Shown here: positions 17,355-21,783 of the stretch, in pieces | Position numbering within the stretch: position 1 is the first letter of the stretch | Layout: each line of letters starts with the position of its first letter | The notes under the pieces: generated by a model | Database searches by the model: none | The model's input: only the letters and a program-made list of their open reading frames with translations | What the model was told of the DNA's origin: nothing | NCBI RefSeq assembly: GCF_928381405.1 | Contig: NZ_CAKMSB010000005.1 | Location: 62,001-126,000 of the forward strand | DNA from: Rothia nasisuis | GTDB lineage: Bacteria; Actinomycetota; Actinomycetes; Actinomycetales; Micrococcaceae | DNA length: 64,000 nt | Direction: 5' to 3' | Position numbers and translations under genes: made by a program

Positions 17355-19472
17355 ATGACTGCACAGGTTGAAGCCCCCGCACCGGGAGTCTTTGTCAACG
17401 AACAATCCACCATCGCCTGGGAAGGCTTCGCCCCCGGCCCCTGGCAAGACAGCATCGACGTGCGCGGCTTCGTCCTCGCTAACTACACCCCCTACGAAGG
17501 CGATGCGGCCTTCCTCGCCGGGCCCACCGACAAGACCCTGCGCGTCTGGGACACCCTCGAAAAGAACTACCTCTCCGTCGAACGTAAAAACCGCGTCTAT
17601 GACGTAGACACCCACACCCCAGCAGAAATCGACGCCTTCCCCGCAGGCTACATCTCAGAGGACGACAACGTCATCGTCGGCCTGCAAACCGACGTTCCCC
17701 TCAAACGCGCCATGATGCCCAACGGCGGCTGGCGCATGGTTGAAACCGCTATTCGCGAAGCCGGTAAAGAACCCGATGAGAACATCAAGAAAATCTTCAC
17801 CGAATACCGCAAGACCCACAACGACGCCGTCTTCGATATCTACACCCCGCGTATTCGCGCAGCCCGTTCCTCCCACATCATCACCGGCCTGCCCGATGCC
17901 TACGGCCGTGGCCGCATCATCGGTGACTACCGCCGCGTGGCCCTCTACGGCGTTGACAACCTCATCGCCGATAAGGAACGCGCCAAGCACGCCGTAGGCG
18001 ACCAGGGCTTCTCAGAACACTGGGCCCGCTTCCGCGAAGAGCACTCAGAACAGATTAAGGCCCTCAAGCGCCTCAAGAAGATGGCAGCCCTCTACGGCTT
18101 CGATATTTCCGGCCCCGCCCGCACCGCCGCCGAAGCAGTCCAGTGGACCTATTTCGCCTACCTGGCCTCCGTCAAGTCCCAGGACGGCGCCGCCATGTCC
18201 ATCGGCCGCCTCTCCGGCTTCCTGGACGTCTACTTCGAACGTGACCTGGCCGCCGGCCTCATCACCGAAACCGACGCCCAGGAAATGATTGACGCCCTGG
18301 TCATCAAACTCCGCATCGTCCGTTTCCTGCGCACCATCGACTACGACCAGATCTTCTCCGGCGACCCCTACTGGGCCACCTGGTCAGACGGCGGCTTCGC
18401 CGATGACGGCCGCACCCTGGTCACCAAAACCTCCTTCCGCCTGCTGCAAACCCTGCGTAACCTAGGCCCCGCCCCCGAACCCAACATCACCATCTTCTGG
18501 GACGAAAACCTCCCCACCGGTTACAAGGAATTCTGCTCCGCCATCTCCATCGAAACCTCCTCCATCCAGTACGAATCCGACCCCCAGATTCGTGAACAGT
18601 GGGGCGACGACGTCGCCATCGCCTGCTGCGTCTCCCCCATGAAAATCGGCAAGCAGATGCAGTTCTTCGGCGCCCGCGTCAATGCCGCCAAAGCCCTGCT
18701 CTACGCCCTCAACGGCGGACGCGACGAAATGACCGGCAAACTCATCGTAGAAGGCTACGAACCCATCAAGGGCGACGGCCCCCTCGACTTCGACGAAGTC
18801 TGGCTCAAGTACGAAGAAATGCTCGACTGGGTCATCGCTACCTACGTCGAAGCCCTCAACATCATCCACTACAGCCACGACAAGTACGCCTACGAGTCCA
18901 TCGAAATGGCCCTGCATGACTCAGACATCATCCGAGCCATGGGTTGCGGCATCGCCGGCCTCTCCATCGTTGCTGATTCACTTTCAGCCATCAAGTACGC
19001 CACCGTCACCCCCGTGCGCGACGATACCGGCCTCATCGTCGACTACATCACCGAAGGCGACTTCCCCGCCTACGGCAACGACGACGACCGGGCCGACGAC
19101 ATCGCCGCCACCATCGTCCACACCGTCATGGAAAAGATTAAGGCAATCCCCCTCTACCGCGACGCCATCCCCACCCAGTCCGTCCTGACCATCACCTCCA
19201 ACGTGGTCTATGGCAAGGCAACCGGCAACTTCCCCTCCGGCCACCGCGCAGGCACCCCCTTCTCCCCTGGCGCCAACCCCGAAAACGGCATGGACACCCA
19301 CGGCATGGTCGCCTCCATGCTCTCCGTTGGCAAGCTGGACTACGAAGACGCCCTCGACGGCATCTCCCTGACCAACACCATCACCCCCACCGCCCTCGGC
19401 CGCACCAAGGAAGAACAGGTCACCAACCTGGTCGGAATCTTGGACGCAGGATTTATTCCTGAAGAGGACTAA
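17355..19472 (+). CDS. pflB: Pyruvate formate-lyase lacking the glycyl-radical domain
   Basis: Cleaves pyruvate with CoA to acetyl-CoA and formate in anaerobic metabolism. 705 residues from the ATG at 17355 (GAGGAG eight bases upstream; the frame opens 19 codons earlier). The catalytic Cys pair is present in IACCVSPMKIGKQMQFFGAR (about residues 423-424), and the N-terminus resembles E. coli PflB (WQDSIDVRGFVLANYTPYEG). It stops after ALGRTKEEQVTNLVGILDAG plus a few residues. E. coli PflB (760 residues) continues there for about 50 more residues carrying the radical Gly in RVSGYAV; here that segment is absent and is encoded by the next gene. Codon use is extremely C-ending, suggesting high expression. 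Confidence 0.97.
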   Translation: MTAQVEAPAPGVFVNEQSTIAWEGFAPGPWQDSIDVRGFVLANYTPYEGDAAFLAGPTDKTLRVWDTLEKNYLSVERKNRVYDVDTHTPAEIDAFPAGYISEDDNVIVGLQTDVPLKRAMMPNGGWRMVETAIREAGKEPDENIKKIFTEYRKTHNDAVFDIYTPRIRAARSSHIITGLPDAYGRGRIIGDYRRVALYGVDNLIADKERAKHAVGDQGFSEHWARFREEHSEQIKALKRLKKMAALYGFDISGPARTAAEAVQWTYFAYLASVKSQDGAAMSIGRLSGFLDVYFERDLAAGLITETDAQEMIDALVIKLRIVRFLRTIDYDQIFSGDPYWATWSDGGFADDGRTLVTKTSFRLLQTLRNLGPAPEPNITIFWDENLPTGYKEFCSAISIETSSIQYESDPQIREQWGDDVAIACCVSPMKIGKQMQFFGARVNAAKALLYALNGGRDEMTGKLIVEGYEPIKGDGPLDFDEVWLKYEEMLDWVIATYVEALNIIHYSHDKYAYESIEMALHDSDIIRAMGCGIAGLSIVADSLSAIKYATVTPVRDDTGLIVDYITEGDFPAYGNDDDRADDIAATIVHTVMEKIKAIPLYRDAIPTQSVLTITSNVVYGKATGNFPSGHRAGTPFSPGANPENGMDTHGMVASMLSVGKLDYEDALDGISLTNTITPTALGRTKEEQVTNLVGILDAGFIPEED

Positions 19473-19493
19473 AACTCAATAGATTCAGCAACA

Positions 19494-19563
19494 CCGGTAG
19501 AGGGGTGCCCACCAGCACCCTTAACGCCAGCCCCGAGCCAGCTGGCTGGCACCCCTCTACCGG
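19494..19563 (+). repeat. Hairpin between pflB and grcA
   Basis: Perfect 16-bp arms CCGGTAGAGGGGTGCC (19494-19509) and complement (19548-19563). The 38-base loop contains a further 12-bp palindrome AGCCAGCTGGCT (19536-19547). No T-run follows, so it is not an obvious terminator. It ends 38 bases before grcA and could protect either RNA from nucleases, letting the two PFL pieces be made in different amounts. Confidence 0.75.
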
Positions 19564-19601
19564 GATCGCAACCTCATTAACTCACCACTAAGGAGAACAT
19601 C

Positions 19602-19853
19602 ATGGCCGTCAAGACCTACGAAGAGCGCCTCGCATCCATGAAGGCAAACCGCGCCAACAAGACCGCCCCCAAGGGCCTCTACCACGCCAACATCAACGTC
19701 CTCAACCGCGAAACCCTTGAGGACGCCATGGAGAACCCCGACAAGTACCCCAACCTGACCGTCCGCGTCTCAGGCTACGCCGTCAACTTCGTGCGCCTGA
19801 CCCGCGAACAGCAGCTGGACGTACTCTCCCGCACCTTCCACCACGGAGCCTAG
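19602..19853 (+). CDS. grcA: Stand-alone glycyl-radical domain (GrcA-like)
   Basis: 83 residues equivalent to the missing C-terminus of Pfl[21 protein letters not shown] then [20 protein letters not shown] and DVLSRTFHH. Gly58 in RVSGYAV is the predicted radical site. In E. coli the 127-residue YfiD/GrcA carries a similar domain and rescues oxygen-broken PflB; here PflB has no such domain of its own, so this subunit should be needed for any activity. Residues 1-27 are a basic helical extension ([18 protein letters not shown]). It has its own AAGGAG ribosome site and lies between pflB and pflA, 9 bases before the latter. Confidence 0.95.
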
Positions 19854-19862
19854 TGATTCTTC

Positions 19863-20744
19863 ATGTCACTTGATATCTCTCACGAGATAACCGATACCGC
19901 CGGCGAGCTAGCATTTGCTCCGCCGGCGGACCGGCATTCCGGGGCCGGCACCTGGGGCCTGGGTGAGCTGACCGAACTAGAACGCTCCGCCCAGCTCAAG
20001 CTCATGCGCGAAGGCCAACTAGGGTCTGTGCACTCCTGGGAGCTGGTGACTGCCGTTGATGGGCCCGGCACCCGCATGACCATCTTCATGAACGGCTGCC
20101 CCCTGCGCTGCCTCTACTGCCACAACCCCGACACCTTCAACATGAAGGACGGCAAACCCGTCATGGCCGCCGACCTCATCAAAAAAATCAAGCGCATGCG
20201 CAAGGTCTTCAAAGCCACCGGCGGCGGCATCACCATCTCAGGCGGAGAAGTGCTCATGCAACGCCCCTTCGCCGAGAACATCCTCATGAGCGCCAAATCC
20301 CTGGGCATTCACACCTGCATCGACACCTCAGGGTTTCTCGGGGCCCAGGCTTCAGACGAATTCCTCGACAACGTTGATTTGGTGCTGCTCGATGTTAAAT
20401 CGGGTTCTGAGGAGGTCTACCGGCAGCTCACCGGCCGCGCCCTACAACCCACCATCGACTTCGGCGACAGGCTCTCAGCCCTGGGCAAGAAAATCTGGAT
20501 CCGCTTTGTGCTGGTACCCGGCTACACCGACGATCCCGACAATATCGAAAAGGTAGCCGATATCGTCTGCCGCTGGCGCAACGTCGTTGAACGGGTTGAG
20601 GTATTGCCCTTCCACCAGATGGGTACCGACAAGTGGGAGTCCCTGGGCTACGACTACAAGCTCAAGGGCGTGCACCCGCCCAGCCGTGAGGCCACCGAAG
20701 ATGCCCGCGACATCTTCCGCGCACGAGGCCTCACCGTCTTCTAG
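19863..20744 (+). CDS. pflA: Pyruvate formate-lyase activating enzyme (radical SAM)
   Basis: Installs the glycyl radical on PFL using S-adenosylmethionine and a 4Fe-4S cluster. The cluster motif CxxxCxxC is in FMNGCPLRCLYCHNPDTFNM, followed by the glycine-rich GGGITISGGEVLMQ segment and the C-terminal VLVPGYTDDPDNIEKVADI and LPFHQMGTDKWESLGY blocks. 293 residues, some 45 longer at the N-terminus than E. coli PflA (246); an internal ATG before REGQLGSVHSWEL would give the standard length. Its substrate here should be the small GrcA-like protein, not PflB. Ends the operon before a large hairpin. Confidence 0.96.
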   Translation: MSLDISHEITDTAGELAFAPPADRHSGAGTWGLGELTELERSAQLKLMREGQLGSVHSWELVTAVDGPGTRMTIFMNGCPLRCLYCHNPDTFNMKDGKPVMAADLIKKIKRMRKVFKATGGGITISGGEVLMQRPFAENILMSAKSLGIHTCIDTSGFLGAQASDEFLDNVDLVLLDVKSGSEEVYRQLTGRALQPTIDFGDRLSALGKKIWIRFVLVPGYTDDPDNIEKVADIVCRWRNVVERVEVLPFHQMGTDKWESLGYDYKLKGVHPPSREATEDARDIFRARGLTVF

Positions 20745-20760
20745 ACTCCATACATCAAAC

Positions 20761-20830
20761 GATGACCCCCTTGTTTCTCTCTTCACCCCATGGATTATCT
20801 CGGGGTGAAGAGAGAAACGAGGGGGTCATC
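20761..20830. terminator. 29-bp stem bidirectional hairpin
   Basis: GATGACCCCCTTGTTTCTC... (20761-20789) pairs with 20802-20830 with a single T-G wobble and an 11-base loop. It lies between the convergent ends of pflA and the GlxA-type regulator, 8 bases from the latter's stop, and likely ends both transcripts. Confidence 0.8.
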
Positions 20831-20838
20831 TGTTTCTT

Positions 20839-21783
20839 CTACCGGGTAAAGCGCTGTCGGTACGACAAGGGACTAGTGGCAAATGCTTTCACAAAGGCCT
20901 GCCTAAAGGTAGTTGTACTGTGAAACCCCGTTTGTTCAGATACCTGAGCAATACTCAGCTGAGTACTCTCAAGAAGCCGCCTGGCCGCGTCCAGCCTCCG
21001 TTGCTTCACCCACACAGCAGGCGTCACCCCGGTCACCTGCACAAAACGTCGCGTCAAATGCCGGCCACTCATAGCAACCCTCCTAGCCAAAGCATCCACA
21101 CTCAAGTCATGCTCTAGGTGGGTATCAATAAACTCCAGCAACTCAGAAATACGGTCGGGACTATCTGACTGAGGTAGCTGACGCACCACATGCTGGGTCT
21201 GATTTCCCTCCCGATGGGGCGCAATCACCAACTGTGCGGCTACCTGAGCCGCAATATCAGCCCCCAGCTCCCTCCGGACCAAATGCAAACAGGCATCAAG
21301 TGCAGCTGCCGTCCCGGCAGAGGTCATAACGTCCCCGTGGTCGATATACAGCGCTTCAGCCTTCACATCCACTGTGGGGAAGCGGCTTTGCAGTTCAGCC
21401 CCGCATGCCCAGTGGGTCGTCGCCGCCCGTCCGTCCAGTACCCCGGCCTTACACAGCACAAAAGCACCAAGGCACAGCCCCATCAGCATTGCACCGTCTG
21501 CCCACCGCTCCCGTAGAAAACGGGTGAGCTCCGCAGGTACTGGCGGAAGATCGTTACCCCAGGCAGGCACCATGTAGCAGTCAGCATCCAGCACATCTGC
21601 TAGCCGCCCCTGCACAGATACCCTGACCCCCTCGTCGGTGACGATATCTTCACCGGTTAAAGAACAGATAGTGGTAGCCCAGCCCCGCCCCGACCTTCGG
21701 ACCGCTACCTCACCCGCCACCAAAAGCGGGGTTGAGAGATGAAAGAGGGTCATTCCGTCAAAAGCAAGTACAGCAATCTTCAC
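20839..21783 (-). CDS. GlxA-type AraC family transcription regulator
   Basis: 314 residues. Residues 1-180 form a DJ-1/PfpI-like domain (MKIAVLAFDGMTLFHLSTPL; GAMLMGLCLGAFVLCKAGVL, with Cys at the nucleophile elbow), which in this family senses a small ligand rather than acting as an amidotransferase. The C-terminal 100 residues are a double AraC helix-turn-helix (VDALARRVAMSGRHLTRRFV and LSIAQVSEQTGFHSTTTFRQ). It is divergent from the isochorismatase-like hydrolase gene, 105 bases apart, and probably controls it. No link to pfl is implied; the two are separated by a terminator-like hairpin. Confidence 0.9.
   Translation of the reverse strand: MKIAVLAFDGMTLFHLSTPLLVAGEVAVRRSGRGWATTICSLTGEDIVTDEGVRVSVQGRLADVLDADCYMVPAWGNDLPPVPAELTRFLRERWADGAMLMGLCLGAFVLCKAGVLDGRAATTHWACGAELQSRFPTVDVKAEALYIDHGDVMTSAGTAAALDACLHLVRRELGADIAAQVAAQLVIAPHREGNQTQHVVRQLPQSDSPDRISELLEFIDTHLEHDLSVDALARRVAMSGRHLTRRFVQVTGVTPAVWVKQRRLDAARRLLESTQLSIAQVSEQTGFHSTTTFRQAFVKAFATSPLSYRQRFTR

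Follow-up and report, generated by a model that had tools for sequence, protein, structure and literature searches.

A pyruvate formate-lyase of Rothia nasisuis very probably built from two obligate pieces, with the glycyl radical on a separate small subunit

Pyruvate formate-lyase (PFL) is a main route by which sugars are metabolized without oxygen, and the glycyl-radical domain is the weak point of the enzyme in air. In a study on Escherichia coli, the small protein YfiD (also GrcA) is reported to activate oxygen-cleaved PFL and to duplicate a beta strand that is retained by the cleaved enzyme (PMC8683613). The same study describes an artificial E. coli PFL consisting of residues 1-695, for which binding of YfiD was undetectable and radical installation was 32-fold lower, while its activity, once activated, equaled that of the wild type (PMC8683613). 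By analogy, a body cut at this point would not automatically work in trans. In addition, E. coli with the radical-dead PflB variant G734A is reported to produce formate with GrcA and none without it (PMC12338860). Curators have noticed small radical-domain proteins of this kind, as the NCBIfam models GrcA2 and GrcA3 exist. No description of a naturally split PFL was found among the open-access titles and abstract openings listed, a scope outside which most subscription journals and bioRxiv lie, and passages of PMC11528403 and PMC12288474 contain nothing on it; split PFL has possibly been described in the literature already.

The window analyzed here is a stretch of 64,000 nucleotides from the actinobacterium Rothia nasisuis. 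A first-pass annotation, made from the letters of this DNA alone, had proposed that the catalytic body and the radical domain of PFL are encoded there by separate genes, which were found at the positions given in Table 1. PflB residues 14-701 align to residues 3-694 of E. coli PFL (1h16), with four residues beyond; the motif IACCVSPM lies inside, and the C-terminal end is NLVGILDAGFIPEED. The Cys-Cys motif is therefore kept, as had been noted, and the chain stops at the entry to the radical domain, with about 65 of the 759 residues missing rather than the about 50 that had been estimated. The next gene, which was correctly annotated with a ribosome site of its own, encodes this domain: GrcA2 residues 22-80 align to E. 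coli residues 698-756, and the glycine of the RVSGY motif is the one that had been named as the radical glycine. PflB and GrcA2 are thus complementary, and only about three E. coli residues between them are unaccounted for. The N-terminal extension of GrcA2 is net basic by our own count, in agreement with the annotation, and measures 21 residues in the E. coli alignment and 27 in the earlier count. The hairpin that had been seen in the spacer was also found to be strong (z -5.78; 0 of 200 shuffles as stable). By eye, an inverted repeat, nearly perfect and with arms of some 28 nt, lies at around 20762-20829, between pflA and a convergent gene on the minus strand (20839-21783) that has the look of an AraC-type regulator; this repeat is probably a two-way terminator.

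Table 1. Features of the split PFL locus, in positions of the window
Feature	Position	Strand	Description
pflB	17355..19472	+	705 aa, PFL catalytic body; Cys-Cys motif present, glycyl radical absent
spacer	19473..19601	+	129 nt; strong hairpin (16-bp outer stem), AAGGAG ribosome site
grcA2	19602..19853	+	83-aa glycyl-radical subunit; Gly58 in RVSGY; conserved N-terminal extension
pflA	19863..20744	+	293 aa, radical-SAM activating enzyme; TIGR02493 312.9 bits, cut-off 231.75

Profile comparisons agree with this division of the enzyme. PflB matches the Pfam PFL-like family (PF02901) with 649 bits (cut-off 24.3), and on its own scores 979.1 bits against the NCBIfam PFL model (TIGR01255), just below the cut-off of 994.2, as expected because the radical domain is absent from the body. 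The locus has the Cys-Cys pair and the cognate activase of a PFL, and the radical domain sits in the next gene instead of in the same chain. GrcA2 is a member of NCBIfam GrcA2 (NF008341; 164.3 bits, cut-off 145) and scores below the cut-offs of both GrcA/YfiD (TIGR04365; 87.8 bits, cut-off 170) and GrcA3 (NF038360; 95.3 bits, cut-off 158). The sense of its family name, a spare for an intact PFL, does not apply here, as no match to an intact PFL or another glycyl-radical enzyme was found in the genome. The long N-terminus of PflA also occurs in fused actinobacterial systems, and was for this reason ruled out as a split-specific partner.

The profile search of the host assembly (2.72 Mb, 99.98% complete) gave one PFL-like match and two half Gly_radical matches; at E <= 0.001, nothing further was found for PFL-like or Gly_radical, and nothing for NRDD. 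A second full-length pflB, for which the first-pass annotation had advised searching, was not found in this assembly. Within the genus, PFL is present in 19 of 35 genomes, exactly one in each, and the other 16 have no PFL match. Each of the 19 was inspected, and all are split, with a ribosome-site-like sequence before the small gene in every case. The spacers vary from 31 to 225 nt and place the two genes in frames 0, 1 and 2 relative to each other (7, 7 and 5 genomes, respectively). Fourteen of the 19 spacers fold at -20 kcal/mol or lower, the shuffle control being that of the window spacer only. Weak folding (-0.3 to -9.5 kcal/mol) was observed for the other five and for 9 of 10 site-1 spacers of other genomes (site 1 being the cut seen in the window), so the hairpin was rejected as an essential element because of the five weak genus spacers. 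Both genes are under purifying selection, with mean pN 0.056 and pS 0.429 for grcA2 (167 of 171 genus pairs, those with pS > 0.05) and pN 0.042 and pS 0.464 for pflB. All 27 site-1 pairs compared (19 of the genus including the window, and 8 others) have the Cys-Cys motif and RVSGYA. The GrcA2 N-terminal motif [ST][FY][ADE]ERL is likewise found in 27 of 27 split relatives, the same motif having been used by the script to place the starts. By the script's pattern, pflA was recognized in all but 1 of 19 site-1 loci, and several fused loci likewise yielded none.

The absence of a second PFL, Gly_radical or NRDD match, the purifying selection on both genes and the pflA gene that follows support the proposal of the annotation that this is an obligate two-subunit PFL, and pflB and grcA2 very probably encode one such enzyme. 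Binding of GrcA2 to PflB, activation and catalysis are the parts of this reading that are predicted from sequence. Since the genome search turned up no other radical domain, activity would depend on GrcA2. The pocket for the substrate and the pair of catalytic cysteines would lie in the 705-residue body, and GrcA2, most likely docking on it, would complete the barrel and bear the glycyl radical on Gly58. PflA would abstract the hydrogen from this glycine, probably with GrcA2 bound to or near the body, after which the radical would move from GrcA2 to the cysteine pair, as in one-chain PFL. As oxygen would cut the chain at the radical glycine, the body would be spared and the 83-residue subunit alone destroyed and replaceable. 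That the loss is indeed limited to a small subunit that can be replaced after oxygen is put forward tentatively, and it is plausible, as the annotation had proposed, that the splitting serves renewal of the radical after oxygen. Since binding of YfiD to the engineered 1-695 body was undetectable and the natural cut is at the same place, the two natural partners should fit each other better, for which the conserved GrcA2 N-terminus is a candidate source.

The site-1 split has also been observed outside the genus, in Dermabacter hominis, Actinomyces gaoshouyii, a Trueperella MAG and six Corynebacterium genomes. Eight of these nine were scanned with PF01228 (the one holding locus L057 was left out), and all eight have only two half Gly_radical matches. 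Two more genomes, one in the order of the window and one in its class (L025/L179, L199), carry this split as well. In the Trueperella MAG, the PFL body (L055:73-2241) is broken by an in-frame stop after NGGRD. The site-1 type is rare in even, overlapping samples: genomes above the GrcA2 cut-off numbered 3 of 394 in the class, 2 of 396 in the phylum and 5 of 149 in the family, all five belonging to the genus of the window. In the seven distinct genomes over this cut-off in the three group searches, the match always lies in a short frame of 90-129 residues. Among the lower-scoring matches listed for the class sample, the frames have at least 755 residues, except for one of 58 residues (G784). 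Fused relatives are frequent in the class, as all 16 newly fetched lower-scoring loci (L200-L215) are fused, and one fused PFL is present in the family (G036). Cellulomonas citrea has a fused PFL (L065) that shares 80% identity with the window body. It groups inside the split clade, apart from two other Cellulomonas, and represents a natural fused counterpart, which may have been gained by transfer.

A second type of split (GrcA3-type), common among Lachnospiraceae and in a different class of the phylum, has its cut about 13-16 residues upstream of site 1, at E. coli 681/682 versus 694. The site-2 body runs to GALGK, followed by a tail that is variable and often rich in cysteine, and DNLVSMLDGY falls in the small protein. 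The window body, cut about 13 E. coli residues later, is not of this type. Endings such as CSCC, CDCC, CGCC, CACCEPN and ACAIPNL were seen among the variable tails of L136, L138, L148, L150, L155, L158 and other site-2 bodies. Of five site-2 small proteins tested, three lie above the GrcA3 cut-off (158), and the remaining two, both from Lachnospiraceae, reach 157.5. In two families (f19 and f40) of another class of the phylum, presumably Coriobacteriia, the site-2 split was found in 21 of 21 loci (L032-L052). Of 200 genomes sampled in the family that includes the Acetatifactor genome, 69 exceed the GrcA3 cut-off, at least two of them (G675, G653) in a fused frame, and the 25 loci that were fetched all have a domain-less body upstream, once about 1 kb away. 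Given these 69 genomes, a split PFL appears to be widespread as an enzyme of the gut. A class-wide sample gave 15 of 291 genomes over the same cut-off. One genome of the Acetatifactor family (G733) has 25 matches to the GrcA3 model in 2.2 Mb, the most among the matches listed.

Taking all loci together, 127 are split, 107 are fused and one is fused with an additional stand-alone domain, counts in which the same genome can appear more than once and which, most loci having come from radical-domain searches, do not amount to random sampling. The state was read with two profile HMMs built from the sequences collected here. In all 127 split loci, the stand-alone domain shares the fetched locus with a domain-less body, the two being about 1 kb apart in L177. 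The single locus of the third kind, from Silvimonas terrae (L075:2678-5174), has an intact fused PFL with a 66-residue stand-alone radical domain directly after it, which is a candidate spare part. At least three genomes (G664, G698, G711) have a stand-alone GrcA3-type domain together with a GrcA3-like match in a frame of 754-768 residues, and in G664 the long-frame match is a fused PFL (L198). This genome thus carries a split site-2 PFL (L197) and a fused PFL of a different branch. Because these genomes also list the long-frame match, the obligate reading is weaker for site 2, and the obligate claim is therefore limited to site 1 and the window. Two PDB chains named formate acetyltransferase, 38la (687 residues) and 38lb (739 residues), match site-2 bodies better than E. 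coli PFL, and no match to the radical domain was found in either. 38lb has a tail rich in cysteines, as seen in split bodies from nature; the end of 38la coincides with the cut, and this chain may be either natural or a trimmed construct. Site-2-type bodies have probably been solved already by at least one group.

The two split types are independent. In a tree of 79 bodies, site 1 falls in a clade of actinobacterial PFLs, and site 2 forms a clade together with PFLs of Bacillus and Lachnospiraceae. This was a quick tree with SH-aLRT only, using 79 of 133 bodies (26 of 52 split and 53 of 81 fused) after well-represented groups had been thinned by hand; the split classes were assigned before the tree, and the AU tests were picked after seeing it. 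A single origin for both types was ruled out (AU p 0.000146), as was an all-split site-2 clade without fused members (AU p 0.0029). Site 1 as one clade is compatible with the data (AU p 0.175), so that the fused Cellulomonas citrea and Bifidobacterium PFLs may either fall outside the split clade or have been re-fused, and for C. citrea re-fusion is possible. A separate tree of 34 bodies, made by a careful method, needs four changes of state within site 2, three of which are forced by well supported branches; the clade is split at its base, and fused lineages arise inside it at two or three points. Parsimony by itself does not separate re-fusion from repeated splitting. The distance from ALGK to the radical domain is 46 residues in the fused L192 and 54 in the fused L076, versus 21-22 in L193-L195 and the Bacillus outgroup L124. 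As the extra stretch resembles a split-type body tail plus a small-subunit N-terminus, L192 and L076 apparently bear scars of re-fusion; such a scar is absent from the fused L193-L195.

Other explanations can be weighed against these results. The two genes might give one protein after all, the break being an assembly error or being bridged by recoding, and in the window the frames happen to be in phase. In the genus, however, the spacers are variable in length and fall in all three frames, each with a ribosome-site-like sequence, which rules out assembly error as well as programmed readthrough or frameshift and leaves this explanation with a negligible chance; the first-pass annotation had likewise considered a sequencing error unlikely, and all 19 PFL-bearing genus genomes bear this out. 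It is highly improbable that GrcA2 serves as a common spare in the manner of E. coli GrcA, beside a PflB that is decaying or dead. The NCBIfam name of the protein, an autonomous cofactor, would fit such a role, as would the 16 genus genomes without a PFL match, which make the enzyme dispensable. Against it, the genome search showed no intact PFL that such a spare could repair, and a role as spare for a second PFL or an NrdD was ruled out since no such match was found there; the catalytic motifs in all 27 split relatives, the selection on both genes and the 19 genomes alike also speak against decay.

A stronger contender accepts the two-piece enzyme as real and takes the split for neutral gene fission, without oxygen-related or regulatory benefit, so that the enzyme works like the fused form. 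The fused lineages nested in the site-2 clade, the closeness of the fused C. citrea PFL to the window body and the frequent fused relatives in the class, with one in the family, are all in line with it. Lachnospiraceae are mainly strict anaerobes, for which exposure to oxygen should be rare; the presence of the split there favors neutrality and argues against an oxygen benefit as the sole reason. On the other hand, two independent splits of the same enzyme at nearby sites (AU p 0.00015), their retention across genera and the conserved new N-terminal segment of GrcA2 suggest selected features, and neutral fission is regarded as quite possible without being favored. Separate dosing of the radical subunit, for instance by means of the hairpin in the spacer and the ribosome site of grcA2, may be another reason for the split. 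The strong hairpin of the window, the 14 genus spacers at -20 kcal/mol or lower (with the shuffle control for the window spacer only) and the ribosome-site-like sequences in all 19 would suit such a function, but the weak folding of five genus spacers and 9 of 10 others at site 1 makes it improbable.

Going further from the obligate two-piece enzyme, the PFL radical might be a detachable, consumable protein cofactor whose subunits exchange between bodies, are discarded after oxygen or use and are cheaply resupplied, with this modularity selected twice at two sites and reversible by fusion. This generalization is speculative and considered rather unlikely. A separate, apparently obligate radical subunit makes docking, exchange and recovery after oxygen testable. 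Splits of this kind, at two distinct points, are seen again in distantly related bacteria, and the window case is not unique.

Compared with known systems, the enzyme of the window belongs to the same family as E. coli PflB (1h16) over both the body and the radical domain, and has the Cys-Cys pair, the RVSGY glycine and a PflA-type activase in common with it; however, E. coli PflB is one chain of 759 residues, whereas the window enzyme is cut at 694/698 into two genes. E. coli GrcA/YfiD (6owr) is a stand-alone glycyl-radical domain like GrcA2, with a 73-bit match over the domain, and works in trans with a PFL body. It has 127 residues, aligns to GrcA2 over the radical domain only and acts as a spare for a PFL already equipped with a radical domain, whereas GrcA2 is the only radical domain found in its genome. 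GrcA2 is a clear member of an NCBIfam family (NF008341) whose name implies an autonomous cofactor, whereas its context points to an obligate subunit, and "autonomous cofactor" proteins of the GrcA2 and GrcA3 types should often be read as enzyme subunits. The GrcA3-type split PFL (NF038360) likewise consists of a domain-less body and a small radical protein, but differs from the window type in its cut at E. coli 681/682, its often cysteine-rich body tail and its separate clade. The artificial E. coli PFL 1-695 is engineered and has, within a few residues, the same cut as the natural site-1 split, so a comparison of the two should reveal what a stable two-piece interface needs.
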